From: Nitrospirota bacterium
Lineage (GTDB): Bacteria > Nitrospirota > Nitrospiria > 2-01-FULL-66-17
Assembly: GCA_040757335.1 (NCBI GenBank)
Contig: JBFLXB010000006.1
Span: 1 to 64,000 of the forward strand
Length of the DNA: 64,000 nt
Reading direction: 5' to 3'
The translations under genes and the position numbers were made by a program. Positions 33,097 to 50,548 of this stretch are shown piece by piece (position 1 is the first letter of the stretch; each line of letters begins with the position of its first letter). Below the pieces are notes generated by a model. It did not search any database, was not told where the DNA came from, and was given only the letters and a program-made list of their open reading frames with translations.

Positions 33097-33972
33097 TTAG
33101 GGCGTCTGAAGTTCGACGGATGGCGGGACCAAGTGATGCGGTTGGAGCGCGGTCTGGAGCCGGTATGACGTTTGGAGATCGTGGAGAGGGATGTTCACCT
33201 CCGCCACATCGAACCGAAAATCCACACCGACACCGCCTGAGGGCGGGACGGCCACTTGTTGCGCCTGGACTTTCATGTGGGGATGCCACGCCACGACGTC
33301 GTAGACGCCGGGAGGAACATCCGAGATCTTGAAGCGACCATCCGCGGTCGTCACGGCGAAATACGGATTGCCCACGGCTATTCCCCAGGACTGCATGAAG
33401 TCGTGCACTCCGCACTGGGTTTTGAACAGGTAATGGCCTTTTCGCATCCGGATCTTCTTCTCCGCCGTGCTCTCCGGGACCGTCGGCTTGTTGAACATCG
33501 CAAAGGTGTATTCGTCGGCCATGGAATACGCTTGAACGTCGTGGGTGATCGGATCCTCGTTCCGAATCACGATCGGATGGGCGTTGCGAACCGGCGTTAC
33601 AAACGGCCCGATGCGACAATTCCTCAACCGCAGTTCAGGGGTGTAGTCGAACCGCTTCCCTTTGGCCACGCCGACCACCGCAACGACCACGCCCTCGAAT
33701 CCTCCTTCGCCGTCAACGTGGAATTCCTTGAGCAGGCGGTTGCCCTTCCCGTCCGAGATCGAGCGACAGAGCTCGATGTTTGGCGAGAAGATCAGGTGGA
33801 AAATCCGCGCGGGCGGAGCTTGGCCGTCGAGGAACACCCGCCCTTCAATGACGCCTCCGTCCGTGACCTCGATCTCTTGATAGGCCCTCACCTCGACGGC
33901 AGGGGCGACCATCGCCAGCACCGACAACAACGTCGCGGCGACGCCTGGTCCCAACCATCCTTTGATCGTCAT
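33097..33972 (-). CDS. Periplasmic cupredoxin with C-terminal carboxypeptidase-regulatory-like domain (paralogue 1)
   Basis: A 291-residue secreted protein (signal peptide ~1-30). A plastocyanin-type type-1 copper site is complete: His144 (DPITHDVQ), then Cys187, His190 and Met193 (QCGVHDFMQ). A transthyretin-like carboxypeptidase-regulatory domain follows (FKISDVPPGVYDVVAWHPH). It is the most diverged of three paralogues and lacks the C-terminal cysteine pair of the others. Such proteins are often labelled methylamine-utilization-like, but no mau genes are present. Last gene of the copper cluster, 11 bases after its paralogue. Confidence 0.85.
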   Translation of the reverse strand: MTIKGWLGPGVAATLLSVLAMVAPAVEVRAYQEIEVTDGGVIEGRVFLDGQAPPARIFHLIFSPNIELCRSISDGKGNRLLKEFHVDGEGGFEGVVVAVVGVAKGKRFDYTPELRLRNCRIGPFVTPVRNAHPIVIRNEDPITHDVQAYSMADEYTFAMFNKPTVPESTAEKKIRMRKGHYLFKTQCGVHDFMQSWGIAVGNPYFAVTTADGRFKISDVPPGVYDVVAWHPHMKVQAQQVAVPPSGGVGVDFRFDVAEVNIPLHDLQTSYRLQTALQPHHLVPPSVELQTP

Positions 33973-33983
33973 GGAAATACTCC

Positions 33984-34937
33984 TCAGCGCCGGACACCAC
34001 TCACCGGGTCGCAGTACGGAGGTTCACACTGCTCGAGGTGATCGTGGGGTCTCGCTTCGGGGCCGATTCGAAACTTCTCCTGGCGCTCGTACAGCGGTCG
34101 TATCACTTCGCGACCGTCGAATTCAAACGTGAGCGCGATCGACTCCCCTTCCCTGATCGTGATCTCACGCTCAATGGGCTTGAGATGGGGGTGCCAGGCA
34201 GTGACGCGGTAGGTCCCGGGCGGTAATTGGTCGATCGAGAACTCTCCCCCTCTCCGGGTCTTGGCATAATAGGGATTGTCGACCACGTAGCCCCAACTCT
34301 GCATGAACTCGTGCATCCCGCAAATCATCTGCGCGATCCGCTTCCCTTTCTCCAGATGCACGATCCCCCCGCGCGGTTCGGTGGAGACGGGCAGCGGGAA
34401 GTTCAACACGATGTTCCCCCGTTCGCTCTGGAAGATCTGGCTGTTGTGGATGATCGGATCCCGATTGACGACCGTGATGGGCTGGTCGTTTTGCATCACG
34501 GTCACCAGCGGGTGTTCGTGACGCAGCCTCCCTTCTTTCCCAACCGCGAACTGCTCGTCGTCCTGGACGTCGGCGGGATGGAACATACAATCCACCACGA
34601 CGTAATCGTTCTTGATCGGCGCGAACGGTTTTCCCCTTGTGACTCCCTGGACCGCGACCACGGCATCTTGGAGTCCTCCGTCCGACGCGACTAGAAACTC
34701 CTCGAGGAGGATGTGGCCTCGCCCGTCCGAAATCTTTCGACAAAAGGGACCGAACGGATACAACACGAGCGGAAACACTCTGGGCTCGGGAACCTCGCCC
34801 TTCAACACCACCTTCCCCGTGATCGCCCCACCGGTGACGACGGGAAGTGGCTCGTAACCAAACGCCTGGGGCAATCCCACGAACACGCCAAGGAGCGCGA
34901 CCACGCCTGCCAGTTGCTTTAGTGAGATGTTCACCAC
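33984..34937 (-). CDS. Periplasmic cupredoxin (paralogue 2)
   Basis: 317 residues, close in sequence to the 40339 gene. Copper ligands: His164 (DPIIHNSQ), Cys206, His209, Met212 (ICGMHEFMQSW), with the same 42-residue His-Cys spacing as paralogue 3. An N-terminal section has PFCRKISDG and DCMFHPADV, adding conserved cysteines; the C-terminus ends with a CxxxxC pair (CEPPYC). It starts at GTG 34937 with an AAGGG-type ribosome site. Likely electron carrier to or from the multicopper oxidase directly upstream. Confidence 0.85.
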   Translation of the reverse strand: MVNISLKQLAGVVALLGVFVGLPQAFGYEPLPVVTGGAITGKVVLKGEVPEPRVFPLVLYPFGPFCRKISDGRGHILLEEFLVASDGGLQDAVVAVQGVTRGKPFAPIKNDYVVVDCMFHPADVQDDEQFAVGKEGRLRHEHPLVTVMQNDQPITVVNRDPIIHNSQIFQSERGNIVLNFPLPVSTEPRGGIVHLEKGKRIAQMICGMHEFMQSWGYVVDNPYYAKTRRGGEFSIDQLPPGTYRVTAWHPHLKPIEREITIREGESIALTFEFDGREVIRPLYERQEKFRIGPEARPHDHLEQCEPPYCDPVSGVRR

Positions 34938-34975
34938 AACACCCTTTGTCAGATCCGACCAGGGACCAGATAGAC

Positions 34976-35017
34976 GAAGATCGGGGCAGGTGCCAAGGGC
35001 ATCCTGCCCCGATCTTC
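34976..35017. terminator. Very stable 15-base-stem hairpin between the multicopper oxidase and cupredoxin genes
   Basis: GAAGATCGGGGCAGG (34976-34990) pairs perfectly with 35003-35017 around a 12-base loop. There is no T-run after it on the transcribed strand, so it may be a partial terminator, an mRNA-processing or stabilising hairpin that uncouples expression of the oxidase from the two cupredoxins downstream. Confidence 0.6.
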
Positions 35018-35042
35018 ACGTTCCCCTACCAAACTGCCACGG

Positions 35043-38000
35043 TCACTTCCGAAGCATCGAGACCGGTCCAGTGGGCTCCGGTTTCACTTCGGACAACTCT
35101 TCGGGCTGATCAATCGCCGGGACCTCGGCGGTCTGCCCGCCGGTTCCGCCGCTGTTCAACGACAGAATCCTCTTGTCGCCGACCGGCAGTACGCTGAGAT
35201 ATCCCCATTGCCCGGCCTGGGCGTACGGCATCCGATGATTCTGCCAGACATACACGCCGGGAATGGCGAACGGCCCACCGGCGCCTTCTTTCAAATACAC
35301 GTCGAGGTACTCGGACCCTCCGAACTGCAGGCTGCTGAGCATGTCCGCGCCGGGCATGTCCGGCTTGAACGGCCACTCGTGGCCCTCCAGGCTGAAGATC
35401 TGGTTCTGTTCGTTGAACGCGCCGAACACCCGGATGCGAACCGGATCCCCTGCGTGCGCTCGGATGGTCGGCGTGGCCGGTTCCGTTTCGTCGGCCACGC
35501 AGGCGGTGAACATGTTGCCGTACTCGCAGCCGTTTTCCTCGCGGTACGCCCACGGCTCCACCCGGTAATTGACCCCGGTCAACCCTGCGATCTGCTGAAT
35601 GTAGGGCATGAACGAGGTGCCGATGATGTTGTCTTCATCCTGGAAGAACAACGACGCGTCGCGATAGTCGGACCGCCCCTTGTTCTCGGGAAGGGACCGA
35701 TCGACGAGCACGTCCACCTGCCAGGCGTTCTTGAGCGTGACGTCTTCCCCGGTCTTGGAGTCGCGGTACTTCGAACCACGCGGGCCGACCACGATGGCGC
35801 CGAACAGGCCGTCCCGAACGTTGTTCACGAAATTCCCCCAATCCCACACCAGGGCGGCCGTCTCCCCATACTGGGGATGCGCGTAAAACGTATAGGTGCG
35901 GCTCTGACCGGGTCCCACGGTTTGGTCGCCGGGGTTGTTCCCGACGTTGGCGCCGTGAGAATCCTTGGGATCGAACGCCAGCATGTCCGCGCTGAACGAC
36001 GCGCGGCTGCCCTTCATCTCGTTCTTGAGTTTGACCTTCACGCAATCCCCGACGTTGACGTGCAGGGTCAACGGCATGGGCTGCTCGCCGCCGGTCGCCA
36101 CCTTCGTCTTTTCACCCTCGAGCATATAGATCTTGCCTTGCGGGTTGGCGACTTGCAGTTTCCGGTCGAAGTCCACCTCGATCACGTCGGCGGCCTTGGG
36201 GTTGAACTTCAAGGCCCGGTCCGCCGCGATCACGTTGAAGGTCTTGACCGGAGCGTCCGCCGGACAGACAGACTTCGCAGACTCGGGGATGTCGGAGCGG
36301 CCGGGCAGCTTTTGCAGGTCAGGAGTCGCCTTATCCAAGACCCGGATGATGCCCCAGCTCCCTTCCGACAAATGCGACGCGCGCCCGTTGTAGTGCAGGT
36401 AATCGCCCGCGATCTGTTGAGCCCCGCCGGCCTTCGTGACGAGGTCATACCGCTCCGCAATCCCAACGTGGTGGGCGTTTCGCAGGTCCGATTTCTCCGC
36501 GTATCGCTCGGTGCGGAACGCGTGACCCGCCAAGTGCCACGTGTGGCTTTCGTTCATCAGGGTGTGGAGCAACCGAAACACCATGGTGTCGCCCAGGTAC
36601 GCGCGCAGCATGGGCGTGCTCGGGTCTTGGTGGGCCTTGCTCGAAAAGATCAACGACGGGTCAGGGTTGTTCTTGAGCCGCCGCGCCACGGACTCGGCTC
36701 GGAAATTGAATCCGCCTCCGGTGGTGTGCGTGCCGCCGTTCAACTTGACCGCTGCGACGGGGTCCAAGTCGTACGGCATCTGGAACGACAGCGTCTGGCC
36801 GGCGTCGATCGCCACCTGTAACGTCTGGCCGGGCGGGTTGCCTTCCGAGACCACCTGAGCCGTGGTGGGAACCGTGTCGTGCGGCATGACCACCAGTTCG
36901 CGGAAGCTCCCGTTCACGCCGTATCCGATGGGTTCGGTCGAACGGATGTCCGCGACCGGGCCGCTGCGAATGGGCTCCCCGGTCTTGGGATCGTGGTACG
37001 TCGCGCCCACCGGCTCCACGATCATCGCCCCCACGCCGCCGTGCGGCCAGGTCGTGGCGCCGAACGCGTGGTCGTGCCAGAACACGGTTCCGATGTCCGC
37101 GTCGACCCACATCCGATACCGGACGAATTCCACCGTCGCGATCTCGTTCTTCTTGTGGTCGAATCGCAACGGTTCGGTGAACGTGACCGTATCGCCCTTG
37201 ATGTCCTTGACCCAGAGGATCTCCGAGGTCTTGACTTCGTCCGCCCCGATCATCAAGTCGCTGCCGACGTGGAACGGCGTGGCCCCATCCGCCATCTTGA
37301 TCTTGATGCTGGTGGCCCCGGCTTTGACGTCCTCGGTCAGCACCGCGTTCATGGGCGTCGGGAGGCCCTTGTGCTTCTCCTTCTTCATCTGCGTGAACGG
37401 ACGGACCGCCTGCTCGTACGAGAAGCCGGTAATCACGCCGTCCGAGGCTTGGTTGTCGAACTGAATGAAGTGCGGGTGGATGTTGATCTTCGACATCTGG
37501 AAGTTCGTGGTGTCGTTGTCCTGCCACTCGCTCTTCAGGATGACGTCCACGCAGTCGTACACGCTCGCGCGGTACACCAGCGGAATCGTCTTGTCCCCGG
37601 CGGGGTTGGCCCGCACCGCGGCCTCCTCCTCGTGAAGGACGTAGAGCAGGCCGTTGGGATCCACCACCGGCTTCTGCTTACCGATTCCTTTGCTGAGTTG
37701 AATCGGCGTCTGGATGAAGTGGATCGTGTACTGCTTGCGTCCCGCGTTCTCGGGACAGAGGCTCCACCGGCCGTGTTCTCCGGGTTTGGCCGGCTGGTTG
37801 GTTTCCTCGCCGACCGCGCCTTTGCCGCCGGGATCGGTCGACAGCGCGCCGTTCTCCTTGGCCATGTGGATTGGTTCGAGCCACGGGGCCGGGCCATGAT
37901 GGCGCGCAAACGGCACGCGTTTGCCGAAGTGGGGTTTGAAGTGCGGCCAGGCCAGTTTGCCGGTCTTTTCCTCGAACAGAATGGGCGGCCGCTTCCCAGG

Positions 38001-39974
38001 CATCGGCGACTTGTACTTCGGGAAATCGAACGTCCCGGTCGCCTCGGGTTCGCCCAGCGCCTTGTTCCCGTCCCACGTCCAATCCCAGACGGTCGCGTCG
38101 TAGGCCGTGATTTGCCCCTTCTCGTCAGCGGTATGCCCGGGCTGACCGGCCGGAGGGACCATCATCTTCACCCAGTCCTTGACCGACACGTCCGGCGTCG
38201 GCTTGGACCAGTCCGTCTTGGCAGCGGTGATATTCCACTTCTTGTCGTACCAATCCGCGGTCTTGCCCACCAATTTGTCCGACGTCACGGGTAACTTCAT
38301 GCGCCCCTTGCGATCCGGAAGTTCTTGCAAGGGAGGCATGATGTCCGTGCTGACGTTGGGATAGTTGCCGGTCTGCAAGGTGTTGTACACCCGCCAATAC
38401 CCCCACATCCCGGCGACATAGTGGTGCGCCACGTGGCAGTGGAACAGAAAGTCTCCGGCCAGTTGCTGGCACAGGCCAGACCCGCACTCGGTCTGCAGAT
38501 CGAGCACCTCGGACGGACCGATCACCTGCACGTCCACGCGGTCCGAGGTCGTCCTGACTTCGGGATACTTCACCGGACCGTCTTGCGCGGCCGTGAGCAA
38601 GAACGACTCCTTTCCGTCGGCTTTGGGCTGTCGGAGCCAACGGATCGTGCCGCCGTGAGGGTGGTGGGAGTGAAACACCTCGCCGCCGCCGTGCACCAGG
38701 CGGAACTTGACCGGATCGCCCATATACGACCGCGGAATCGTCGTGGGAACGTCTCCGAAGGTGTACGAACTATAGGACAGCGACTCGTCCTCATGATGGA
38801 AGTACTTCTCTTGCAGCGCGAGGTTGTTCACCCCGAACGGTTCGCTGCGGTAGTTGATCGCGCGCGCCGACGGACGGTACGCGTCGGTGTTGGGATCGCG
38901 TTGCGGAATCGTCTCGCCGCTGCGATTGAGCGGACGGAACGACTCGTCGCCGATTTCGTGATAGATGATGACGAATTCACGGAAGTCCGGCCCCTTGGGG
39001 TCGTCGATCATGACCTGCCACCCGCTCTTCGTCTCTTTCCCGGTGAGCGGGTCGAGGTAGCGGGAACCCATCGGCTCCACCATGAAGGTGCCGATCATCC
39101 CGAGGCTTGCCTGGTCACGCCCGACGTGACTGTGAAAGGCGTGCGCTCCCTCTTGCTCGGTCGGACGGACGTACCATTCGAACACCTGGCTCTCACCCTC
39201 TTTGACCGTTGAGTCGGGATTGGCGATGGTGGCCGCTGCGCCGGTCGCCTTCACGATGGTGCTGGACCCGTGGATATGAAGGCTCACGTCCTCGCCGTCC
39301 AGCTTGTTTCGCAAGGTGATGCGCACGCAGTCGCCCTGATTGGCTCGGATGTTCAACGGCTGGATCAAGTCGGTCTGCAGTCCGGCCGACACCGCGCCCG
39401 GATCATACCCGGCCTTTTCCCGAGCCGCTTGATTGGTCTTTTCCTCCTGGCGGACCTTGTCCACGTTCTCGGTGAGCACGTACATGTACCCGGGATGGTA
39501 GTCCAGCCACTGGTTCAGCGTGATTTCCACGTTGATGGCGGAAATGTCGTAGTCCTTCACCGGGGCCTCTTTCGGGCACGCGCCCCCGCTGGTCACGCTT
39601 TCGCTGACAGCGGTGGGCCCCAGAAAGAAGCTCCGGTCCATCTGCTGCATCATGCTCATGCCGCCGAACGCTCCGTCACCGCCGCTGTGCTGGGCATGGC
39701 CTTCGCTGCCCTTGGCGATCTCTTCCATGAGCTTTTTCATGGCGGCGTCGACCCGATCGCGGTGCCCGGCCCGTCCCTCGGCCGCGTCCTCGCGCTCGAT
39801 CTGGGCCCTCAACTTCTCCTCCCACCCCGCATTTGCCGGCTCCGCCACGGCAGCGGCGTCGTGGTCGTGATGGGCACCCTCGACATCCGAACCCGCCAGC
39901 AACCCGGCCGGTTGACCGACCAGCAAAACCACCCCCAAACCCAACGCCCAGAGAACTCGCCCTAACCTGTCCAT
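35043..39974 (-). CDS. Giant six-domain multicopper oxidase, MofA/McoA-like size class
   Basis: About 1,643 residues with a signal peptide (VLWALGLGVVLLVGQPAGLLA) and a His/Glu-rich linker. Three successive two-domain cupredoxin modules can be seen. Module 1 has the full set of copper motifs: LHIHG (~231), FHSH (~278), HxxHxH (FHSHHPHGG, ~432) and the type-1 motif HCHVAHHYVAGM (~511). Module 2 keeps partial sites (HPHFIQFD ~829, FWHDHAFG ~962, HTWHLAGH ~1142, HYNGRASHL ~1192, Cys lost). Module 3 (~1374-1598) has almost none. Size and layout match Mn(II)-oxidising oxidases such as Leptothrix MofA and Pseudomonas McoA, but substrate is not proven. GGGGAGGT precedes the ATG at 39974. Confidence 0.93.
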   Translation of the reverse strand: MDRLGRVLWALGLGVVLLVGQPAGLLAGSDVEGAHHDHDAAAVAEPANAGWEEKLRAQIEREDAAEGRAGHRDRVDAAMKKLMEEIAKGSEGHAQHSGGDGAFGGMSMMQQMDRSFFLGPTAVSESVTSGGACPKEAPVKDYDISAINVEITLNQWLDYHPGYMYVLTENVDKVRQEEKTNQAAREKAGYDPGAVSAGLQTDLIQPLNIRANQGDCVRITLRNKLDGEDVSLHIHGSSTIVKATGAAATIANPDSTVKEGESQVFEWYVRPTEQEGAHAFHSHVGRDQASLGMIGTFMVEPMGSRYLDPLTGKETKSGWQVMIDDPKGPDFREFVIIYHEIGDESFRPLNRSGETIPQRDPNTDAYRPSARAINYRSEPFGVNNLALQEKYFHHEDESLSYSSYTFGDVPTTIPRSYMGDPVKFRLVHGGGEVFHSHHPHGGTIRWLRQPKADGKESFLLTAAQDGPVKYPEVRTTSDRVDVQVIGPSEVLDLQTECGSGLCQQLAGDFLFHCHVAHHYVAGMWGYWRVYNTLQTGNYPNVSTDIMPPLQELPDRKGRMKLPVTSDKLVGKTADWYDKKWNITAAKTDWSKPTPDVSVKDWVKMMVPPAGQPGHTADEKGQITAYDATVWDWTWDGNKALGEPEATGTFDFPKYKSPMPGKRPPILFEEKTGKLAWPHFKPHFGKRVPFARHHGPAPWLEPIHMAKENGALSTDPGGKGAVGEETNQPAKPGEHGRWSLCPENAGRKQYTIHFIQTPIQLSKGIGKQKPVVDPNGLLYVLHEEEAAVRANPAGDKTIPLVYRASVYDCVDVILKSEWQDNDTTNFQMSKINIHPHFIQFDNQASDGVITGFSYEQAVRPFTQMKKEKHKGLPTPMNAVLTEDVKAGATSIKIKMADGATPFHVGSDLMIGADEVKTSEILWVKDIKGDTVTFTEPLRFDHKKNEIATVEFVRYRMWVDADIGTVFWHDHAFGATTWPHGGVGAMIVEPVGATYHDPKTGEPIRSGPVADIRSTEPIGYGVNGSFRELVVMPHDTVPTTAQVVSEGNPPGQTLQVAIDAGQTLSFQMPYDLDPVAAVKLNGGTHTTGGGFNFRAESVARRLKNNPDPSLIFSSKAHQDPSTPMLRAYLGDTMVFRLLHTLMNESHTWHLAGHAFRTERYAEKSDLRNAHHVGIAERYDLVTKAGGAQQIAGDYLHYNGRASHLSEGSWGIIRVLDKATPDLQKLPGRSDIPESAKSVCPADAPVKTFNVIAADRALKFNPKAADVIEVDFDRKLQVANPQGKIYMLEGEKTKVATGGEQPMPLTLHVNVGDCVKVKLKNEMKGSRASFSADMLAFDPKDSHGANVGNNPGDQTVGPGQSRTYTFYAHPQYGETAALVWDWGNFVNNVRDGLFGAIVVGPRGSKYRDSKTGEDVTLKNAWQVDVLVDRSLPENKGRSDYRDASLFFQDEDNIIGTSFMPYIQQIAGLTGVNYRVEPWAYREENGCEYGNMFTACVADETEPATPTIRAHAGDPVRIRVFGAFNEQNQIFSLEGHEWPFKPDMPGADMLSSLQFGGSEYLDVYLKEGAGGPFAIPGVYVWQNHRMPYAQAGQWGYLSVLPVGDKRILSLNSGGTGGQTAEVPAIDQPEELSEVKPEPTGPVSMLRK

Positions 39975-40159
39975 ACCAGACCTCCCCTTTTCCCAGTTCT
40001 TGCACCGGTCAAACATCGTAGCTACTCGCCATGGCTCGGAGTGCAGTACACAAGCCGGAAGTCCCTCTCGAAACCCTGTGAAAGACGCGCCGCGGAAGAG
40101 TTCTCACACCGTGACCTGCTGATGACGGGATTACTTCAAAAGAAGGGAGGGGGATGGGC

Positions 40160-40288
40160 ATGAAACTACGCTTACGGGTGACGGCAGCCTTTGTTCCTCA
40201 GGGTCAGCCGAAAGGCTTACTTCTTTCGACGGAGGTAAAAGCGCTTCCTTATACTTGGATTCACCAGCGGCTGTCAAGCAAAAAGTGA
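40160..40288 (+). CDS. Doubtful 42-residue reading frame on the opposite strand
   Basis: ATG at 40160 has GGAGG 9 bases upstream and the frame runs 42 codons to TGA. The peptide is basic and matches no family. It overlaps a region that looks like a structured RNA, so coding is uncertain. Confidence 0.12.
   Translation: MKLRLRVTAAFVPQGQPKGLLLSTEVKALPYTWIHQRLSSKK
40169..40243 (-). promoter_or_regulatory. Possible structured leader RNA upstream of the multicopper oxidase
   Basis: The 322 bases between the oxidase and the third cupredoxin gene have no convincing gene. On the minus strand CGCTTTTAC and GTAAGCG form a closing stem around 75 bases that include an AGCC-TTTC-GGCT hairpin and a possible CCTC/GAGG pairing, a riboswitch-like multibranched layout ~200-270 bases before the oxidase ATG. 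I could not match it to a known riboswitch class. Confidence 0.3.
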
Positions 40289-40338
40289 CGGGTGGGAACG
40301 ATTGGCGGCTTGGATCTGACGAACCCAGGCCGCGGGCG

Positions 40339-41301
40339 TTATTCGCCGTGGTGCGCGTGCGGCCTGCGGACGCAGTAGGGTCCCTCGCAGCCCTGGAGGT
40401 CGACGTTGGGATCTCGTTCCGGCGGGATTCGGAACTGGGCTTGGGTTTCGTAGATCGGACGCACCACCTGGGCCGCATCCAGCTCAAAGTCGAGGGCGAC
40501 GGTCCCGTTGGCCGGCACCGTGACTTGTTTGACGAGCGGATCCATGTGCGGATGCCAGGCCGCGACCAAGTACGTCCCGGGCGACAGATTCTCGATGGCG
40601 AACGTCCCATCCTTGCGCGCCTTGGCGAAGTACGGGTTCTCGGCCACCCACGCCCAGGTCTGCATGTACTCGTGCATGCCGCAGATGATCTGGACAATCC
40701 GCTTGCCGCGCTCGAGGTCCACGTAGCCGCTGTGAGCCTTGTACGAAACCGGGATGGGAAAACTCAGCACCCGGTTGCCCTTTTCCGCCTGATACACCTG
40801 CGCCGCGTGCATGATCGGATCGCGGTTCGTCACCGACAACCACGAGTCGTCCCGCATGACCGTGACCAGCGGATGGACGTGCGTCAACCGGCCGTCGTGG
40901 AGTTCAAACTGCTCGCTCTCCGGCACATCGGCCGGGTGAAACATACAGTTCACGGTCAATAGCTCCGTGTCGCGCGACTTGAACGGCTTCCCGCGCTGGA
41001 CGTTCAGGACCGCCACCACCGCGTCCTGGAGGCCCCCGCCGGAATCCACGTTGAACTCCTTGAGCACCACGTGGCCCTCGCCGTCCGAGATCTTCTTGCA
41101 AAAATCCCCGAACGGGTAGAGCACCATCGGAAATACGCGGGGCTCGGGCACATCCCCCCGCAACCTGACGGTTCCGGTGATCGTGCCCCCGTTCGCGACG
41201 TCGGCCATTTCATACGACCACGCAACGGCTGCCCCTGCGGTCCACCCCACCGCCAGCGCGGCGAGAGCCGCCCCTGCAACCTTCTTTGTCATGCTGGTCA
41301 T
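40339..41301 (-). CDS. Periplasmic cupredoxin (paralogue 3)
   Basis: 320 residues with signal peptide. Copper ligands His165 (DPIMHAAQ), Cys207, His210 and Met213 (ICGMHEYMQTW). The C-terminal regulatory-like domain is FAIENLSPGTYLVAAWHPHMD, and the protein ends with CxxxxC (CEGPYC) and a His-rich tail. Sequence is close to paralogue 2, so the oxidase is bracketed by near-duplicate carriers. The ATG at 41301 has GAGGAA upstream; the open frame to 41403 is not part of the gene. Confidence 0.86.
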   Translation of the reverse strand: MTSMTKKVAGAALAALAVGWTAGAAVAWSYEMADVANGGTITGTVRLRGDVPEPRVFPMVLYPFGDFCKKISDGEGHVVLKEFNVDSGGGLQDAVVAVLNVQRGKPFKSRDTELLTVNCMFHPADVPESEQFELHDGRLTHVHPLVTVMRDDSWLSVTNRDPIMHAAQVYQAEKGNRVLSFPIPVSYKAHSGYVDLERGKRIVQIICGMHEYMQTWAWVAENPYFAKARKDGTFAIENLSPGTYLVAAWHPHMDPLVKQVTVPANGTVALDFELDAAQVVRPIYETQAQFRIPPERDPNVDLQGCEGPYCVRRPHAHHGE

Positions 41302-41384
41302 GTGATTCCTCATGCGTCGTCTCAACGGTAAAAATAACCCGAGGAAAAGCGAATAGCAACCCAATGCCACACCCCCATGCGCGC

Positions 41385-41416
41385 CAACGCAGCAGATGAC
41401 CACTCATGGACGGGCT
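41385..41416. repeat. Solitary right end of the palindromic repeat at a stop codon
   Basis: CAACGCAGCAGATGACC...CATGGACGGGCT matches the right end of the complete copies, but the left arm and core are missing. It covers the stop and last four codons of the SUMF1-like gene, so those codons (Gly-Ala-Arg-Pro) may derive from the repeat. Confidence 0.6.
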
Positions 41417-42285
41417 CCCAGAGAGGCGGCGCAGCGAAAGCCGATGGTGTCCCGGCGTGCGTCCGGGCTCGCCGCGCTTCGCGTTGCGGTTCTGAGCATC
41501 ACCGGATCGCTTCGCCACGACCCGCCCCGGACCACTTTGTAGCGTCCAACGGGCGGGCCCTGGGGGTTTCGATCCGGCATGCCGCGATACCAGTCGATCC
41601 CGTTCCAATCCGCAACCCACTCGGCCGCGTTGCCGGCCATGTGGAGCACACCGTAGGGACTTTGCCCGGCCTCAAACGTCGCGGTCGCGGCCATCGGCGG
41701 CTTGGGCGGGCTCACCGCTCGAGCGTACACCGCGCGGATGTGATCCGGCGGATCGTCGCCCCACGGGAACAACCGGCCATCGTCTCCCCGTGCGGCTTTC
41801 TCCCACTCGGCTTCAGTGGGCAGCCGCGCTCCGCGCGAGCGACAATACTCGTTCGCCTCATACCACGTGACGGAGACAACCGGAAGCGCGCCGGCGTCGG
41901 TTACCCCATTACCAGCGGTGGCGCCGTCGAGCCACTGGAGATCCGCGGGCTGTCCCCCGAGATCATCGAGGACCCACCGCAGGTAGTTCGCCACGCTGAC
42001 CTCCTCGCGGTCGATCACGTAGCGGTCGAGCCAGATCCGGCGTTGCGGGATTTCGGTGTTGTCGTATGGGGTTCGCAAACCCGACGTCGGCGGCAGTTGC
42101 GGGGATCCCATGAGAAACCATCCCGCTTCGATCGCGATGACCGGAGACGGACGGGCCGTTTCCATCATGGCGCGGAGCCGGCCCATGGTCTCGTCCCCCG
42201 TTGGGGATTCCGCGGGCGGGGGCGAGACGGCTGAACACGCGACCAGCCCCATGACCATCCACCCGGGAAATCGGACACCCATCAA
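41404..42285 (-). CDS. SUMF1/formylglycine-generating-enzyme-fold lipoprotein, probably not a true FGE
   Basis: 293 residues. A lipobox LVAC (Cys17) marks it as a lipoprotein. The SUMF1 (FGE-sulfatase/PvdO) fold is clear: EAGWFLMGS, LPTEAEWEKAARG, NAAEWVADW, RGGSWRSDP and a final GFRCA. The two cysteines that bind copper in catalytic FGEs (in the GGS...C....C segment) are replaced (SDPVMLRTATR), so oxidation of sulfatase cysteines is unlikely; a structural or ligand-binding role is more plausible. It is the last gene of the propeller operon, 12 bases after the previous stop. Confidence 0.87.
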   Translation of the reverse strand: MMGVRFPGWMVMGLVACSAVSPPPAESPTGDETMGRLRAMMETARPSPVIAIEAGWFLMGSPQLPPTSGLRTPYDNTEIPQRRIWLDRYVIDREEVSVANYLRWVLDDLGGQPADLQWLDGATAGNGVTDAGALPVVSVTWYEANEYCRSRGARLPTEAEWEKAARGDDGRLFPWGDDPPDHIRAVYARAVSPPKPPMAATATFEAGQSPYGVLHMAGNAAEWVADWNGIDWYRGMPDRNPQGPPVGRYKVVRGGSWRSDPVMLRTATRSAASPDARRDTIGFRCAASLGARP

Positions 42286-42297
42286 CGCGACGGCGGC

Positions 42298-43581
42298 CTA
42301 GCGCGGAAGAGTGGTGTAACGCGTCAGGAACTCAACGACTTCTCGCTGTTCGTCCGGCGTCAGGCCGGCGCCTGGGGCCATCCGAGCGACCGTGGGCGCC
42401 CAGTCCCGCTGATTCGGAGCTACCCGCCAGTAGGTCGGTTTCCGGCTCAGCAGCGGATCGGTCCACCCGTGACACCCCGCACACTTCTGGAACGCAGGCG
42501 GTGGCGCTGGGGTGGAAGCCGGGTCCCGGCGCACGGGTCGATCGACCAACGAGGCGATGATATTCGCCACGGGCTCCTGCGAGACACGCTCGGGAGGCTG
42601 AAACCGGAGCCCGCCGTCGAGCGACAAGAACAACCCGTGGTCGTGCGTCCCCGCGTACAGCCGGTCAGGATCGGTCGGGGCAACCGCCAAGGCTTCGACG
42701 TCATCTTTCGGCGGGATTCCGTCCCCCACCTTCATCCAGGTCGCCCCGTTGTCGTTGCTGCGAAACAAACCCCGGCGCAACACGCTGACCCACAACCGTT
42801 TCGTGCCCGCGGGCCCGGCCAACACCAGCCGCACCCACCCCCGTTCAAACTCCTTGCCGAGCGGCGCCCAGCTACGGCCTCGATCATCCGACCGAAACAG
42901 TCCTTGGCGGCGCGTGCCGGCGTAGAAACGTCCTTGCGCGTCCTCGACCAGCGCCGAGATCGCCGCGTGGCTGAGATCCTGTCCAGTCGCCCGCCACGCC
43001 GCATCCCGCCCAGTGCGCGCAAAGAGCGTGCCCTGTCCCAACCAGGCCGTGCCCGAACGAACCAACAATGCGGCCAAGACCTCCCCTTCCATGGCGGGCA
43101 ATCCCTCCCCGTACGGGGTCCAACGGCCGCCGCCGTCCACGGTCTGGAAGACGTCGCCGGTGGACGTGGACGCGACCAAACGTTCGGGCTGCGAGGAATC
43201 GAGGGCCAAGGCGTGAATATTGGTGTTCCCGAGCCCGTGGCTCACCGCGTCCCACGATCGTCCGCCGTTTCGCGTGCGAAAGACGCCGCCGCCGAACGTG
43301 CCGACATAAGCCACGTCGGCGTCTTTCGGATGGATCACCACGTGGTACGCACTGGTGTTGAGGATGCCGTCGCGCGCAGGTAGCCAGGTGCGGCCCCGGT
43401 CCGTGCTCTTCAGGATGCCGACGGGACGGCCCGCGGCATAGAGCACCGACGGGGTCGACGGCGCCACCGCGATCTGATTGATCAGCAGCGGTTCGGCGGA
43501 GGCGACCTCGACCAGGATCGTCGCCGCACCCAGTGCGGCCGCCACGGACGCCCAGATTCGGGCCACCGGATGTGCGGTCAT
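42298..43581 (-). CDS. Secreted BNR beta-propeller with C-terminal monohaem cytochrome c
   Basis: 427 residues. A type-I signal peptide (VEVASA-EP) leads into Asp-box/BNR repeats of the sialidase/Ycf48 type (STDRGRTW, TRNGGRSW, SDDRGRSW, SNDNGATW). The C-terminal ~75 residues are a c-type haem domain: CAGCH at 367-371 and a likely axial Met in DWAPTVARMAPGAGL. The ATG overlaps the upstream stop (TAATG). Three genes in this operon share this propeller-cytochrome fusion. Function unknown; probably periplasmic electron transfer on a protein scaffold. Confidence 0.88.
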   Translation of the reverse strand: MTAHPVARIWASVAAALGAATILVEVASAEPLLINQIAVAPSTPSVLYAAGRPVGILKSTDRGRTWLPARDGILNTSAYHVVIHPKDADVAYVGTFGGGVFRTRNGGRSWDAVSHGLGNTNIHALALDSSQPERLVASTSTGDVFQTVDGGGRWTPYGEGLPAMEGEVLAALLVRSGTAWLGQGTLFARTGRDAAWRATGQDLSHAAISALVEDAQGRFYAGTRRQGLFRSDDRGRSWAPLGKEFERGWVRLVLAGPAGTKRLWVSVLRRGLFRSNDNGATWMKVGDGIPPKDDVEALAVAPTDPDRLYAGTHDHGLFLSLDGGLRFQPPERVSQEPVANIIASLVDRPVRRDPASTPAPPPAFQKCAGCHGWTDPLLSRKPTYWRVAPNQRDWAPTVARMAPGAGLTPDEQREVVEFLTRYTTLPR

Positions 43582-44831
43582 TACCGAAGCTCGATGAGCC
43601 GGGCCAGAGATTCGGCGCGTCCCGTCCGGTAGTCCTTCCAGGCCACGAGATAGCCAGCACCGCCAGCCGCCACGGTGGTAAAGTGGTTGCCCTTTGAATC
43701 CGGGACCACGGTGAAGGCGAGCGGCTTCCGGCCGCGCGCCCACCGCAACGCCCGCACGTCCCGTATCACGTCGGTGATCCTGGTCGTGGCGACGCTCGAC
43801 GACGGGTGCCCTTCTTCCCACACCACCAGGCAATCGTCGGTCCGGCACGACACCGCGGGAAACATGTGGAACCGAGGCGCGGAGGACAGGGGTATGCCGC
43901 CTGGCTCTGTAACCTCCCCATCCCGGGTCAGCGTGGTTCCGTAGAGGGCAAAGGTGTCCCCGGCTCGTTTGTCGACCCACACCACCAGGCTGTCGCCGGA
44001 TCCACGGAGTCCGCCCACCGCCGGATACCCCTGTTCCCCGTCGGCGAGCGAGACCGCGATGCGTTCAGGGTCCAACACACGCCCCTCGTCATCCACCCGC
44101 GCGGCGGAGATGTCGGTTTCACCGCGCCGCGCGTCCATCCACGCCACCACGAAGGCGCGGCCGTTCCACGCTACGGCAGGACGCGTCTGATCCCGGTCTC
44201 CCCCGCCCACCACCAGCCCCTCGGGGTCGAGCACCCGACCGTCCGGCGCGATCCGCGCCGCCACGATGTCCCAACCGGCCCCTGATCGCTCCTGCATCCA
44301 GACCGCCAGAAACACCCGGCCGCTCCACGCCACGCGCGGATGGCGGCGATTGCCCGATCCGACGCCGATCGCCAACCCGTCGGGGTCAAGGACGGTCCCG
44401 TCGGCCCGGACGCGCGTGCCGTAGATCTCCCAGTTGCGCCGGCTGCGCAGGTCTTGCCACAGGACGAGGTGGACGTCGCCGCCCCACGTCACGTCGGGAA
44501 ATAGCGTGTCGGACGGCCCTTGCCCGATCGGAAACCCGTCGCGCGGCGCAACGGTGTGATCGGGACTCACCCACGTGCCGTACACGTCGCTCGGCCCCCG
44601 GCGCGTGGTCTGCCACACCACGAGAAAGCGTTGTCCGTTCCACGACGGCACCGGGTCCTCCTCCTCGTCGGCGGCCCGCGACGACAGCACCAGCTCCGAC
44701 CCGATCCGCAGCGCGTCTTCACCGTCCCCGGGTTTCCCCCCCGGGCCGAGTCCGGCGCAGCCGACGAGGCTTGCCAGCGCGAGCAAGGGCCAGGGCAGCG
44801 CCCGGGCGATGGCGTCAACGCGGGGCAACAA
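43581..44831 (-). CDS. Beta-propeller lipoprotein with ~50-residue repeats, no haem
   Basis: 416 residues. Lipobox LVGC (Cys25). The mature protein is a tandem series of repeats of the type PAVAWNGRAFVVAWMDARRG...ISAARVDDEGRVLDP, seven or so copies, a propeller built from WNG/VVW blades. No CxxCH. The start appears to be TTG (44831 or 44828), overlapping the previous stop by ~15 bases, since no ATG or GTG precedes the signal sequence. Encoded between the YVTN and BNR-cytochrome genes. Confidence 0.8.
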   Translation of the reverse strand: MLPRVDAIARALPWPLLALASLVGCAGLGPGGKPGDGEDALRIGSELVLSSRAADEEEDPVPSWNGQRFLVVWQTTRRGPSDVYGTWVSPDHTVAPRDGFPIGQGPSDTLFPDVTWGGDVHLVLWQDLRSRRNWEIYGTRVRADGTVLDPDGLAIGVGSGNRRHPRVAWSGRVFLAVWMQERSGAGWDIVAARIAPDGRVLDPEGLVVGGGDRDQTRPAVAWNGRAFVVAWMDARRGETDISAARVDDEGRVLDPERIAVSLADGEQGYPAVGGLRGSGDSLVVWVDKRAGDTFALYGTTLTRDGEVTEPGGIPLSSAPRFHMFPAVSCRTDDCLVVWEEGHPSSSVATTRITDVIRDVRALRWARGRKPLAFTVVPDSKGNHFTTVAAGGAGYLVAWKDYRTGRAESLARLIELR

Positions 44832-45786
44832 CGATCCCCATCAAACCCTCGGCGGCGCCCGTCTCCAGCCACGCCACGACCTGACGCGATTCGGAGTCGA
44901 TCACGGCGATGCGGTCCGTTTCGCGATGGGTGACGTACACGCGGCGACCGTCGGGCGCCACGCTGACGCGCCACGGCGACGGTCCCACCGGAACCACCGC
45001 CTCCTCGCGATCGGTCGCGGTCGAGACGACCGACACCGTGTCGGCCCCGCTGTTCGCCACATACACGGTGCCTCCGTCCGGCGCCGACGCGATCCCGACC
45101 GGGTTGAGGCCGACCGCCACCGTGGCCACGACGGTGTCGCGCGCCACGTCGATCACCGAAACCGCTCCCGGCCTCTGGTTCGTGACGTACGCAAAGCGCC
45201 CGTCCGTGGACAGCGCGATGTCGACGGGAAACATGCCGACCGGAATCGTTGCAACGACCAGATACGAGGCGGTGGAGACCACCGAGACGGTCCCCGAGAA
45301 ATAGTTCACGACGTAGACCGCGGGCCGGCGGGGAATCGCAGCCACCGCGATCGGCAACGCACCGACACGGGCCCGCGCCAGTAAGGCGCCGGTCTTGACG
45401 GAGATGACCGACAGCGTCTTATCTTTGGCGTTCGCGACGAACAGGGCCCTCCCGTCCGGGGACACGTCCACGGCCTGCGGCACCGCACCCGCCTCCAGCC
45501 GATCCAGGTTGCGCCCGGGCAAGCGGATCGCCGTCACCATTCGACCTTCTCCGCCGACATAGACGGTTCCCCCGTCCGGCGACACCGTCAGGTCCGCCGG
45601 ACGCGGGATGTCGGGGATCCGAGCGAGCACTTTCCGAGTCTCGGGGTCGACCACCACCACGCTGTCCGCCTGGCGGTCCGCGACGTACAACACGGGCGTG
45701 TGGGCCGCACACGCGGAGAGCAACACCGCCCCCGCCCACCCGGCGAGCATCCACGTCCTGCTCGGCACTGACGCCACGCGGGTCAC
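44815..45786 (-). CDS. YVTN-type beta-propeller lipoprotein
   Basis: 323 residues, lipobox LSAC (Cys26), followed by seven-bladed YVTN repeats (DLTVSPDGGTVYVGG, ALSTDGRFAYVTNQRPG, SVAPDGRRVYVTHRETD, with VSVVSTAT and VSVIDVAR blades). Such proteins are common surface scaffolds. GTG at 45786 overlaps the previous stop (GTGA). Confidence 0.88.
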   Translation of the reverse strand: MTRVASVPSRTWMLAGWAGAVLLSACAAHTPVLYVADRQADSVVVVDPETRKVLARIPDIPRPADLTVSPDGGTVYVGGEGRMVTAIRLPGRNLDRLEAGAVPQAVDVSPDGRALFVANAKDKTLSVISVKTGALLARARVGALPIAVAAIPRRPAVYVVNYFSGTVSVVSTASYLVVATIPVGMFPVDIALSTDGRFAYVTNQRPGAVSVIDVARDTVVATVAVGLNPVGIASAPDGGTVYVANSGADTVSVVSTATDREEAVVPVGPSPWRVSVAPDGRRVYVTHRETDRIAVIDSESRQVVAWLETGAAEGLMGIVVAPR

Positions 45787-47180
45787 GGTTGTCTCTGCGA
45801 CGAATAGGCGTTCAGGAACTCCTCCACTTCGTCTTCCTCGCTGGGTGAGAGACCCGCAATCGGCGCCATGCGGTGCACGGTCGGTCCCCAGTCCCGCCGG
45901 TTCGCGGGCACGAGCCAGAAGCTTCGCGGCGCCTGATTCAGCTCGGGGTCCGTCCAGCCATGACAGCCGTTACACTTCGAAAACGCCGGAGGAGGAATCA
46001 ACCCCACCGCTCGGCGCGTCGGATCAGGGGCCTTCAGCGCCGCAATGATCGTATCCGCGTCCAGCGTCGGAACCCGGTCGAGCGGCCGCCAGCCGGCGCC
46101 TCCGTCCTGGGAGACGAAGACCCCGCTCCCATAGGTGCCGGCGTACACCCGCTGGGGCCGGTGAACATCCACCGCCAACGCACGCACGTCGGGCGTCGCG
46201 AGCCCGTGGCTGCGTCGCTCCCACGTCCGCCCGCCGTCCGTACTGCGCAGCACACCCGACGTCGAGGTGGCCGCATACGCCAACCGCCCCCCGGGATCGA
46301 ACCACACCTGCCGAACCCACTCGAGCGAGAGCCGCTCGTCTTGATCCCACCGGGTCCACGTGGCCCCGGCATCCTCGCTCACGAACAGGCCGCCGCCCTG
46401 CAGCGTTTTCCCGTCGCGCAGCGCGGCCGCGAAGACCCGGCGGCCGTCGGGATGTCGCGTCAGCACGGTGATGGCTCGCCCCGTCAGGTCGCTGGAAGCC
46501 GGCGCCCACGCGGGTTCGGTAGCGCGCCGTCTCCACACGCCGCGACCGGACGCCAGCAATGCCGTCTCGCGATCACCGGGAAGAATGACCAGGTCCTGGA
46601 ACTGCTGGCTCTGCGTAAAGTCGTCCCCCTGATTCCACGCCGTCCACGTGTTCGCCCCGTCCCGGCTGATGAACACGCCGGTCGAGGTCACGACGTACAC
46701 CTGATCGGGATGCTCCGGATGCAGGACGATCGACCCGACATTGGTGTTGGCCAGCCCGTCGTTCTTTTCCACGAAGGATCGCGCTCCGTCCACGCTTTTG
46801 TAGAGCCCGCCTCCCCCCGCCCCCACGTACACCACATCGGGATTGCGCGGATCGAGCACCAGCCGGTAGAGCGAGTAGCTCCGTATGCCGCGATTGGCCG
46901 TCTCCCAATGCCGCCCCGCGTCCTCGCTCTTGAGCAGGCCCACGCTGAAGTTCGTGAGCGCGAGCACCGTGTCCGGCCTCTCCGCGTGCAGCGCAACCTG
47001 CGTCACCACGATGGCCCGGCGCGTGGGCGCTTCGCGCGAGGCGCCGGGTTGCAGGGTCACGCCCGAACACGCGGTGAGCCACGCCGCGAGTCCTATTGCG
47101 GAGGTGAAGAAGCACGATCTCCGTTTTGCTCGCTCACCCCGCCGCAAGCCGCGAGGAGTACGCTCGCAATGCACTTTCAT
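45783..47180 (-). CDS. BNR beta-propeller lipoprotein with C-terminal monohaem cytochrome c
   Basis: 465 residues. A lipobox LTAC (Cys38) follows a basic leader. BNR repeats (SEDAGRHW, SVDGARSF, SRDGANTW, SEDAGATW, STDGGRTW, SQDGGAGW) form the propeller. The C-terminal haem domain has CNGCH at 403-407, GWTDPELNQAPRSFW and RMAPIAGL. The ATG at 47180 overlaps the upstream stop (ATGA), so the frame extending to 47594 is not used. Paralogue of the 42298 and 48400 products. Confidence 0.88.
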   Translation of the reverse strand: MKVHCERTPRGLRRGERAKRRSCFFTSAIGLAAWLTACSGVTLQPGASREAPTRRAIVVTQVALHAERPDTVLALTNFSVGLLKSEDAGRHWETANRGIRSYSLYRLVLDPRNPDVVYVGAGGGGLYKSVDGARSFVEKNDGLANTNVGSIVLHPEHPDQVYVVTSTGVFISRDGANTWTAWNQGDDFTQSQQFQDLVILPGDRETALLASGRGVWRRRATEPAWAPASSDLTGRAITVLTRHPDGRRVFAAALRDGKTLQGGGLFVSEDAGATWTRWDQDERLSLEWVRQVWFDPGGRLAYAATSTSGVLRSTDGGRTWERRSHGLATPDVRALAVDVHRPQRVYAGTYGSGVFVSQDGGAGWRPLDRVPTLDADTIIAALKAPDPTRRAVGLIPPPAFSKCNGCHGWTDPELNQAPRSFWLVPANRRDWGPTVHRMAPIAGLSPSEEDEVEEFLNAYSSQRQP

Positions 47181-48403
47181 CGCGGCGCGCCGGGCCCGGA
47201 GCGTTCGGCCGGAGCGGACAGGGGACTGCGGTACACCCAGGCGCGCGGAGGCAGCGCGGTTCCCGCGTAGAGCGCGCCGCCGAACTCCTGCATCGCTTCC
47301 ACCGTAAACGGCGTGAGCTCTCCGACCTCGTGCCACGACGACCCGTCGGAGCTGCGTTGCACCCGTCCGTTCACCGCCGCGTAGAGGACGCCTGCGGCCT
47401 CGACGAGCGAGGCCACGTACTCCCCGCGTACACCCGATGACTCGCCCGCCGCCAACACCCGCTCCCACGTCTCGCCGTCGCGTGTGCGCCACACGGCTCC
47501 ACCGGTCGTGGTCCCCACGTAGAGAAACGCGCCCGCCGCAACCGCGGCTCGCACCCCGACTCGCGGTTCGGACGGGAACCGCACCATCTCCCAAGCGGCG
47601 CCGTCAGGGCTCCGAAACACCCCGGCCCCTTCGACCCCGGCGTACAGACTCCCCTCAAACGGGATGAGAAACCGCACCCAGTTCGGGAACTGGTTGTCCG
47701 CGCCCGACAGCAACGCGCCTGCCGGGGACCAGGCCCGGCCGTCGGTGGTCCGGTACACGCGACCGCGCGTGGTGCCCGCGTACAACGCGTCGCCGAACAC
47801 CCCGAGCGCGATGACGCCGCGTTCCTCCGCCGGCAGGGTTGCCTCGTGCGACCACTGCGCGCCGTCCGCGCTGCTCCACACCTCGGCTCGCGGTTGATTC
47901 GTGCCGGCAAAGAGGCGATCGCGAAACGACACCAACCCATACACGGTGTACGCCTCGGTCGTCAAGACGGGACGCCAGGATCGGCCTTCCAATCGGAGCG
48001 CGGTGCCGGCTCCCTCGATGCCGGCGTACAGCCGATCCCGAAACGGTTTGAGCGCCACCACGTTCCACCCCGCGGGCACCGGCTCCAACGGTTCCCACTC
48101 CATGGTCGAGACCTTGGGGTAACGGCTCATCAAGTACTCTTCGAGCGAGGCGCGTTCCGACGCGCTGAGCGGGCAGCCCATGGCCTGCATCCAACTCAGC
48201 ACCAGCGTCCACGGTCTGGGTTCAATGGCATGGCTGCGGCCCGCGCAGTCCCCGGCCACGCAGCGGGCATCCAGGGTCACGCCGTGGCAGGCGCCGCAGC
48301 GCGACGTGATGATCGACCGGGCGGTCGTGTCCGACACCGGAGCGCTCGCGCAGCCCGCCAGGATCGCGACGGTGACGACCACCGGCCACCGAACCGCGGT
48401 CAC
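47177..48403 (-). CDS. Lipoprotein with N-terminal monohaem cytochrome c and C-terminal beta-propeller
   Basis: 408 residues with reversed domain order compared with its neighbours. Lipobox LAGC (Cys18) and a haem site CGACH at 36-40 lie at the N-terminus, with extra cysteines (CVAGDC) in the haem domain. Then comes a propeller with blades such as FRDRLYAGIEGAG, FGDALYAGTTRGRVYRTTDG and FEGSLYAGVEGAGVFRSPDG. The GTG at 48403 overlaps the previous stop (GTGA). Confidence 0.87.
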   Translation of the reverse strand: MTAVRWPVVVTVAILAGCASAPVSDTTARSIITSRCGACHGVTLDARCVAGDCAGRSHAIEPRPWTLVLSWMQAMGCPLSASERASLEEYLMSRYPKVSTMEWEPLEPVPAGWNVVALKPFRDRLYAGIEGAGTALRLEGRSWRPVLTTEAYTVYGLVSFRDRLFAGTNQPRAEVWSSADGAQWSHEATLPAEERGVIALGVFGDALYAGTTRGRVYRTTDGRAWSPAGALLSGADNQFPNWVRFLIPFEGSLYAGVEGAGVFRSPDGAAWEMVRFPSEPRVGVRAAVAAGAFLYVGTTTGGAVWRTRDGETWERVLAAGESSGVRGEYVASLVEAAGVLYAAVNGRVQRSSDGSSWHEVGELTPFTVEAMQEFGGALYAGTALPPRAWVYRSPLSAPAERSGPGAPR

Positions 48404-49704: not shown

Positions 49705-49711
49705 CGTTGGC

Positions 49712-50548
49712 TCACGCGCCGGACGGTTGGGCGCGCAGGTAGTCCGCGAGCGCCGCTTGCCACGGGCGCAAGCGAATCCCCAGCCTGGCCAGCTTGGTGC
49801 AATCGAGGATCGAATAGGCCGGCCGCGGCGCAGGCCGTGCCAGCTCGGTGCTCGCAATGGGCACGACCCGGCGGTTGTACCCCGCCAAATCCAGAATCGT
49901 GACCGCGAACTCGTGCCAAGAGCACGAGCCGCTATTGACCGCGTGATAGATGCCGGCAGCCCGAGTGTCGAGCAACGACCGGATGGCCGCAGCGAGGTCG
50001 TCGGCCGCAGTGGGCGAGCCGACCTGATCGCTCACTACGCGCAGTTCGTCCCGCTCGGATGCGAGCCTGAGGATCGTGCGCACGAAGTTCTTGCCCTCGC
50101 CGTACAGCCACGCGGTGCGCAGGATCACGGCGTCGGGTTTGGCGAGCAGCGCTTCGCGCTCGCCCGCCAGTTTGCTCGCGCCGTACGCGGAGCGCGGCGC
50201 CACCGGGTCCTCCTCACGGTAGGGCGTGGTCTTGGTCCCGTCGTACACGTAGTCGGTCGAGATCGCCACCAGGCGCGCCCCGACCTTGGCTGCGCCCTGC
50301 GCCACGTTGCGGGTCCCGTCGGCGTTGACCGCGTAGGCCCGATCGGGATTCGATTCAGCGCCGTCCACATCGGTGTACGCCGCGGCGTGGATCACGACCT
50401 CGGGCCGCGCATCCGCGATCCGCGCGACGATCGACGCGTCGGTGATGTCCGCTTCGGCCTCGGACGGCGCAACCAGATCCTGGTCGCGCAACACGTGTCG
50501 GAGAGCGATCCCCAACTGGCCCGTCGCGCCGGTGAGAAAAATCCTCAT
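49712..50548 (-). CDS. rmlD: dTDP-4-dehydrorhamnose reductase
   Basis: 278 residues, SDR fold with MRIFLTGATGQLG at the N-terminus, the YxxxK catalytic pair in SAYGASKLAGE and the STDYVYDG motif. It makes dTDP-L-rhamnose in the last step. In this window rmlC is missing and rmlB is only a remnant directly upstream. Confidence 0.94.
   Translation of the reverse strand: MRIFLTGATGQLGIALRHVLRDQDLVAPSEAEADITDASIVARIADARPEVVIHAAAYTDVDGAESNPDRAYAVNADGTRNVAQGAAKVGARLVAISTDYVYDGTKTTPYREEDPVAPRSAYGASKLAGEREALLAKPDAVILRTAWLYGEGKNFVRTILRLASERDELRVVSDQVGSPTAADDLAAAIRSLLDTRAAGIYHAVNSGSCSWHEFAVTILDLAGYNRRVVPIASTELARPAPRPAYSILDCTKLARLGIRLRPWQAALADYLRAQPSGA

Follow-up and report, generated by a model that had tools for sequence, protein, structure and literature searches.

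Class Nitrospiria includes the main nitrite oxidisers and the comammox bacteria and, to our knowledge, holds the only known Mn(II) lithoautotrophs, among them Candidatus (Ca.) Manganitrophus. The enzyme discussed here is a giant multicopper oxidase (MCO) encoded at 35043-40016, beside three cupredoxin genes, in a 64,000-nucleotide stretch of a Nitrospirota bacterium (assembly GCA_040757335.1, contig JBFLXB010000006.1, positions 1 to 64,000), which will be called the window; all window features given below by coordinate lie on the reverse strand. The first-pass annotation of this DNA placed the protein in the size class of the Mn(II) oxidases, which is true, although size is weak evidence for function; the likeness to MofA of Leptothrix and McoA is one of size class. 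Closer counterparts have been in print since 2013, when Lucker et al. (PMC3578206) described a periplasmic MCO of Nitrospina gracilis and Ca. Nitrospira defluvii that very probably belongs to the same family. In the sections of that paper at hand, the Nitrospina gene lies inside a cluster with NXR, bd-like oxidase and cupredoxin genes, and a defence against reactive oxygen species (ROS) based on Mn(III) is proposed for the Nitrospina and Nitrospira enzymes; a class-wide adjoining cupredoxin partner was not found in these sections. The window genome, which was compared with no Nitrospina sequence, differs in having no NxrA-like protein; its best NxrA match reaches 62 bits and lies on contig C48 rather than on C6, the contig of the window, so that the gene does not share the NXR/bd-like cluster location.

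A second report is probably that of Yu et al. in 2022 (PMC9040806), since the "two novel MCOs" of Ca. Manganitrophaceae mentioned in the available text appear to be the copies found in Ca. Manganitrophus GAC4; the Manganitrophaceae are family f9, and the window genome is from f1. The points taken as new here are a census across the class, the regular pairing with cupredoxins, the cupredoxin and FGE-like families common to the MCO loci and the bd-like clusters, an inserted-domain architecture and a lineage-bound set of four His. The accessible parts of PMC12342949, PMC13374858, PMC9797979, PMC11033732 and PMC11812461 contained no description of the MCO-cupredoxin pair, and the word "multicopper" did not occur in the main text, as available, of the 2019 N. 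moscoviensis transcriptome (PMC6606698) or the 2020 N. marina study (PMC8115632). Among the matches listed from the open-licence literature there was no such partnership, and neither an experimental test of MCO function nor a MnxG structure paper was found in that literature.

The MCO is not an isolated Mn-oxidase-like oddity but a class-wide gene. At a match threshold of E <= 1e-50, and with the window's own genome included in this and the other distribution counts, it occurs in 212 of 217 Nitrospiria genomes (those without a match are G005, G314, G339, G370 and G376) and in 48 of 49 genera; this large, apparently secreted enzyme is present in 174 of the 176 high-quality genomes, down to sizes of 1.7-1.8 Mb (G169 and G172), and usually with cupredoxins. 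A sample of the whole phylum gave matches in 128 of 295 genomes; 122 of these are Nitrospiria, and the 6 from elsewhere in the phylum are weak (E 2e-4 to 9e-14); the 20 genomes listed among the 167 without a match are all from outside the class, the remaining 147 being unlisted. Two more copies, both open frames and 77-78% identical to the window copy, are encoded elsewhere in the window genome (G000, 3.56 Mb, 99% complete), with cupredoxins beside one (L049) and none beside the other (L050). The copies of Ca. Manganitrophus GAC4 (G050; CP114561) show 81-82% identity along almost the entire length (a further genome of the family, Ca. Manganitrophaceae SCUR01, is G044), and the main copies of Nitrospira-type genomes (family f2) show 59-63% identity over ~1600 residues. 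Three copies with 59-62% identity are present in G027, which we take to be Ca. Nitrospira defluvii.

The earlier idea that the enzyme acts outside the well-known lineages is misleading in the light of these relatives, some of which occur together with NxrA-like proteins. A search of 11 genomes detected frames of ~1150 aa with 182-215 bits, all below the family cut-off, in G027, G047, G169 and G172, and none in the other seven, the window genome included. Because the MCO is found with and without NxrA-like proteins, it is not tied to one energy metabolism, and a gene that is class-wide is no valid marker of Mn metabolism. An initial suspicion that the f12 genomes include Leptospirillum was dropped, as nothing in the data shows it and GTDB places that genus in another phylum. 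The Ca. Manganitrophus-type genomes (f9; L055, L057 and L058) carry a second, tandem MCO with ~57% identity, and in the tree described below the tandem copies of L057 and L058, together with some of the f2 copies, make up a paralogue clade apart from the rest.

The second feature that recurs across the class is the company of cupredoxins. Two of the window cupredoxins are encoded 3' of the MCO gene (33984-34937, 317 aa, followed by 33097-33972, 291 aa) and a third upstream of it (40339-41403, 354 codons; the end previously given, 41301, is an inner ATG). In a first sample of 20 regions spanning families, cupredoxin genes stand beside the MCO in 17: in 9 of the 10 regions from outside the Nitrospirales-type families f2 and f12 (L049-L058) and in 8 of the 10 from within them (L059-L068). 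The second sample, drawn from further genomes with long contigs, all of f2/f12, comprised 20 regions and 21 MCO genes; for 20 of the 21, a cupredoxin gene on the same strand lies no more than 5 kb to the 3' side. By chance a cupredoxin gene would be expected this close to only ~2.5% of MCO genes, a figure that rests on an estimate of ~8 cupredoxin genes per 3.5 Mb. In the exceptional region, L101, an MCO gene is followed by a gene for an FGE-like (sulfatase-modifying-factor-like) protein and then by a second MCO gene with two cupredoxins. Cupredoxin homologues were detected in 57 of 58 genomes.

This conserved same-strand linkage gives real support to the prediction that the cupredoxins are dedicated one-electron carriers of the oxidase. 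The picture of an MCO bracketed by cupredoxins, on the other hand, applies in part: the downstream genes are the usual MCO partners, whereas relatives of the upstream one stand away from MCO genes, none of which was seen nearby in the 10 regions checked (L131-L140, representing 10 of its 15 best matches outside the window genome). The upstream cupredoxin was accordingly rejected as a conserved MCO partner.

The MCO frame is 1657 codons long, and the protein of ~1,643 residues described earlier is real, the lower figure corresponding to a start at an inner ATG at codon 15. Its Pfam matches are Cu-oxidase_3 (E 1.8e-21) and Cu-oxidase_2 (E 1.5e-10), and its top relative among solved structures is MnxG (9bxa, E 2e-101). 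Hydrophobic, signal-like N-termini, called by eye and not by a signal-peptide program, are present on the MCO and on all three cupredoxins, which points to a periplasmic location of the module. An AlphaFold2 (AF2) model of MCO residues 141-1240, built from 15 sequences, had a predicted local distance difference test score (pLDDT) of 33.2, too low for a judgement on the surroundings of the type-1 (T1) copper.

The copper ligands were compared by aligning 71 Nitrospiria sequences with 9 plasmid-borne ones as outgroup, no two of them the same; frames shorter than 1100 residues were excluded, and proteins with identical last 300 residues were entered once; L062, with 7 differences from L064, has no row of its own, and families f10, f13, f14 and f15 are unrepresented. 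The motif HxxHxH (residues 449-454, domain 2; 38655-38672), which presumably supplies the T1 His and two His of the trinuclear centre, as in the MCO consensus, is present in 71/71 Nitrospiria and 9/9 outgroup rows. All 71 Nitrospiria rows likewise have HCHxxxHxxxxM (residues 526-537, domain 2; 38406-38441), with the T1 Cys, His and Met and two trinuclear-centre His, and the motifs HxH (HPH in the window protein, residues 847-849; 37470-37478) and HDH (residues 981-983; 37068-37076) of domain 3, with further trinuclear-centre His. The twelve positions, that is the T1 Cys-His2(-Met) and eight trinuclear His, are therefore intact and identical in all aligned Nitrospiria copies, which places the protein in the multicopper oxidase superfamily; all twelve are kept by 7 of the 9 outgroup rows, L076 lacking several and L073 having Phe in place of Met. 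The order of the ligands, together with the homology to MnxG, suggests a protein of three modules in which domains 2 and 3 enclose a single trinuclear centre, and in the 21 rows displayed the equivalents of the T1 site in modules 2 and 3 have no Cys.

An ordinary laccase-like or copper-homeostasis MCO, acting on organic phenols or Cu(I) and having no special link to cupredoxins, would also be expected to show generic Pfam domains such as those found here, and the HCHxxxHxxxxM T1 site occurs in many laccases. Models of the CueO/CopA type, however, match the window protein over one short stretch only, and the cupredoxin linkage is constant across the samples (copper-efflux neighbours were not searched for), so that this explanation appears very improbable.

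The cupredoxins themselves carry complete His-Cys-His-Met sites, as had been noted, and all three are part of an alignment in which the four T1 ligands are invariant in 29 of 29 family members; nine of the 38 matches were kept out of it, three of them cut or broken and without the motif and six with C-x2-H-x2-M. The spacing of the ligands, earlier called identical, is so for C-x2-H-x2-M, which lies at 33394-33414 and 34302-34322 in the second and first downstream proteins and at 40663-40683 in the upstream one, but the distance from the first His to the Cys is 43, 42 and 42 residues. A Pfam match to a CarboxypepD_reg-like domain was obtained for the C-terminal part of the first downstream cupredoxin. 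The AF2 model of the upstream protein, taken from residue 33 (322 residues, 17 rows), reached a pLDDT of 80.8, and a first Foldseek list for it was weak (5 matches at E <= 0.001). In the structural comparison, transthyretin-like carboxypeptidase domains matched within model residues 36-282 (~80 aligned, Z up to 12.3) and cupredoxins at ~109-222 (Z 7.4-8.7 over 83-96 residues), middling values beside which the ligands carry the argument. Since the second range is nested in the first, the architecture is read as a cupredoxin domain inserted in a transthyretin-like (CarboxypepD_reg) domain. The cupredoxin fold and the short C-x2-H-x2-M loop are shared with amicyanin, whereas the insertion sets the modelled window protein apart from the amicyanin-like cupredoxins. 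By ligands and modelled fold the window cupredoxins qualify as putative type-1 blue copper carriers, and electron transfer to the MCO is predicted.

From these data a tentative reading emerges, favoured here with somewhat less than even confidence, in which a periplasmic, O2-reducing MCO is wired to cupredoxins and forms a class-wide copper electron-transfer module of Nitrospiria. The cupredoxins would feed electrons one at a time to the single T1 copper of the three-module, MnxG-related MCO, or exchange electrons with it; from there the electrons would move through the HCH motif to the trinuclear copper centre between domains 2 and 3, where O2 would be reduced to water. The likely donor is a high-potential periplasmic electron pool, because the cupredoxins share their family with those of the bd-like oxidase/cytochrome c clusters described below, and the module might serve that chain as a side branch, or as a safety valve, that consumes O2. 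Donor, direction of electron flow and physiological role are proposals.

Several observations weigh against the proposed cupredoxin-fed oxidase. MCO genes without an adjoining cupredoxin exist (L050, L059, L061 and one in L101), and the FGE-like gene, which lies within 5 kb of 13 of the 21 MCO genes of the f2/f12 sample, was seen outside these families only in the window; none of the 10 such regions of the first sample has it. Electron transfer from a cupredoxin to an enzyme is established for the related nitrite reductases but is not known to be so for O2-reducing MCOs, and the best-studied relative, MnxG, oxidises Mn. No energy is conserved when O2 is reduced in the periplasm, and it is hard to see what the cell would gain. 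In addition, the MCO and the cupredoxins are all net negative when cleavage sites are assumed, and simple electrostatic docking is therefore not suggested. The MCO is also no simple stand-in for a missing oxidase, as COX1-family matches occur in 20 of 58 genomes (15 of them above the cut-off); a rule by which it replaces a missing haem-copper oxidase was considered and is not supported, since 57 of these 58 genomes have the MCO. The window genome, for its part, gave no match in the COX1-family search and two PF01654 (bd-like) matches, one of which runs across a stop codon.

The relationship with MnxG leads to the most serious rival, a periplasmic metal oxidase for defence, in which Mn(II), or else Fe(II) or Cu(I), is oxidised with O2, Mn(III) scavenges superoxide or the metal is detoxified, and the cupredoxins are accessory, serving in copper loading or electron buffering. 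The solved structure closest to the window protein is that of a MnxG, and Bacillus MnxG (9bxa; PMC5622069) shares its order of T1 and trinuclear ligands, as seen in the MnxG-type relative L070, a reference with 1705 bits to 9bxa. L070 is 32% identical to the window MCO in the alignment (1227 versus 1657 residues) and belongs to a different clade. With the P. putida-type MnxG the protein shares superfamily and size range (E 8e-38), but it scores 129 bits against the equivalog model NF041487, far from the cut-off of 3100 bits; L074, the reference nearest to that type, has 1409 bits and is itself under the cut-off.

The phylogeny proposed in the first-pass annotation, with MofA, MnxG and McoA, was run in part, as a quick maximum-likelihood tree of 35 rows whose references are plasmid-borne homologues only, rooted on L074 and containing no MofA or McoA. 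The 27 Nitrospiria rows form one clade with a Shimodaira-Hasegawa-like approximate likelihood ratio test (SH-aLRT) support of 100, and both L070 and L074 fall outside it, so that by this comparison the Nitrospiria MCO constitutes a clade of its own, not a member of the MnxG clade, and stands apart from both Mn-oxidase reference types included. Within it, the window MCO groups with the other copies from outside f2/f12, including those of Ca. Manganitrophus (15 rows, support 100), and nearest to the whole clade is the Streptomyces plasmid protein WP_266914373.1. The long branches of the outgroup, about which the program warned, make the deep order of the tree unsure. The closest non-Nitrospiria homologue found, at L069:7308-12626 on a Streptomyces plasmid, has 1772 aa, scores 670 bits, is annotated as hypothetical and is followed by a CopC gene.

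Besides the separate clade and the low equivalog score, it tells against the defence hypothesis that no partner subunits were detected near the MCO. According to the available sections of PMC5622069, mnxEFG is required in Bacillus, and phmmer searches with Priestia MnxE/F-like queries gave no match at E 0.01 in 57 loci, the window included; the reach of this search is limited, because as a control it recovered the near-identical plasmid L071 and nothing in the 8 other outgroup loci, so that distant homologues may be missed. The full T1 site of the cupredoxins, moreover, suits electron transfer better than copper delivery. N. marina possesses superoxide dismutases (SODs) and catalases, as reported in the accessible text of PMC8115632, and an MCO present almost throughout the class can hardly be a simple SOD substitute. 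On the other side stand the ROS defence put forward in the seen part of PMC3578206 and the occurrence of the MCO with and without NxrA-like proteins, an independence from energy metabolism that fits such a role. The metal-oxidation role suggested earlier remains a serious rival; in this defensive form it is only a little less likely than the favoured reading.

The proposed link between the cupredoxins and respiration comes from 20 regions around more distant cupredoxin matches (~29-35% identical; the 2 kb stretch L129 was left out). In eight of them, L085, L090 and L091 (f1), L093 (f5), L121 (f7) and L126, L127 and L128 (f6), a cupredoxin gene, one or two FGE-like genes, a bd-like oxidase and haem-motif (c-type) proteins are found within ~10 kb, so that the cupredoxin and FGE-like families are shared between the MCO loci and these clusters. 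At L085:8721-19100, on contig C3 of the window genome, a single run contains a cupredoxin, a bd-like oxidase, three haem-motif proteins and two FGE-like proteins that have hydrophobic stretches at the N-terminus. The other 12 regions show no bd-like gene, which again tells against the favoured electron-transfer module: f2, f8, f9 and f12 account for nine of them, and f6 and f3 for the remaining three (L092, L125 and L130), of which L092 and L125 contain FGE-like genes.

These clusters, distributed over f1, f5, f6 and f7, could also be taken as support for lithotrophic metal oxidation, in which Mn(II) or Fe(II) gives up electrons to the T1 copper of the MCO and the cupredoxins carry them on to the bd-like oxidase complexes, with conservation of energy. 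The 81-82% identical copies of Ca. Manganitrophus fit this route, as does an additional four-His set in domain 1, made up of HIH (residues 247-249; 39270-39278) and HSH (residues 295-297; 39126-39134). The set is complete in 32 of the 71 Nitrospiria rows, none of them from f2/f12, and the 39 rows without it comprise 38 from f2/f12 and the truncated L042; every aligned copy from outside these families except the truncated one therefore has it. A periplasmic carrier that the electrons must reach is a condition stated in the available part of PMC9040806, although its authors regard Cyc2 and PCC_1 as the better candidates for oxidising Mn. The trinuclear centre, furthermore, is intact in every aligned Nitrospiria copy, so O2 reduction is presumably retained; the gene is equally common in nitrite-oxidiser families; and two f9 regions with a distant cupredoxin, L120 and L122, have no bd-like gene. 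The lithotrophic route is for these reasons considered quite unlikely.

The four-His set was also considered as a marker of organisms that do not oxidise nitrite, a proposal weakened by G054, which has no NxrA-like match and whose copies L066 and L067 also lack the set; the set follows lineage instead. Its state changes at least twice on the tree of 27 rows, where gain and loss are indistinguishable.

A large enzyme kept almost throughout the class, usually with copper carriers of its own, marks a gap in the published respiratory models considered here. A bolder version of the favoured reading, speculative and unlikely as a whole, would see the pair as a core part of respiration in Nitrospiria that has gone unrecognised: a cupredoxin:O2 oxidoreductase, soluble and periplasmic, that shares its cupredoxin and FGE-like families with the bd-like clusters. 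Outside Nitrospirales, the Mn(II) lithoautotrophs included, the extra four-His metal site of domain 1 would let it accept electrons from Mn(II) or Fe(II) as well.

The gene that immediately precedes the third cupredoxin, at 41404-42285, encodes the window's FGE/sulfatase-modifying-factor-like protein (PF03781, E 3.6e-45), which has a lipobox-like N-terminus and 3 Cys in total, none of them in the segment where FGE has its catalytic Cys pair. Just upstream of it, a tight run of beta-propeller proteins (BNR/Asp-box, YVTN) occupies 42298-49857, and three of them have one CxxCH haem motif at the end; in the regions taken from two other genomes (G025:C98 and G006:C18), their homologues occur as multi-copy clusters with no MCO gene nearby. 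Far from the MCO locus, at 14136-15413, a 425-residue frame contains five CxxCH motifs.

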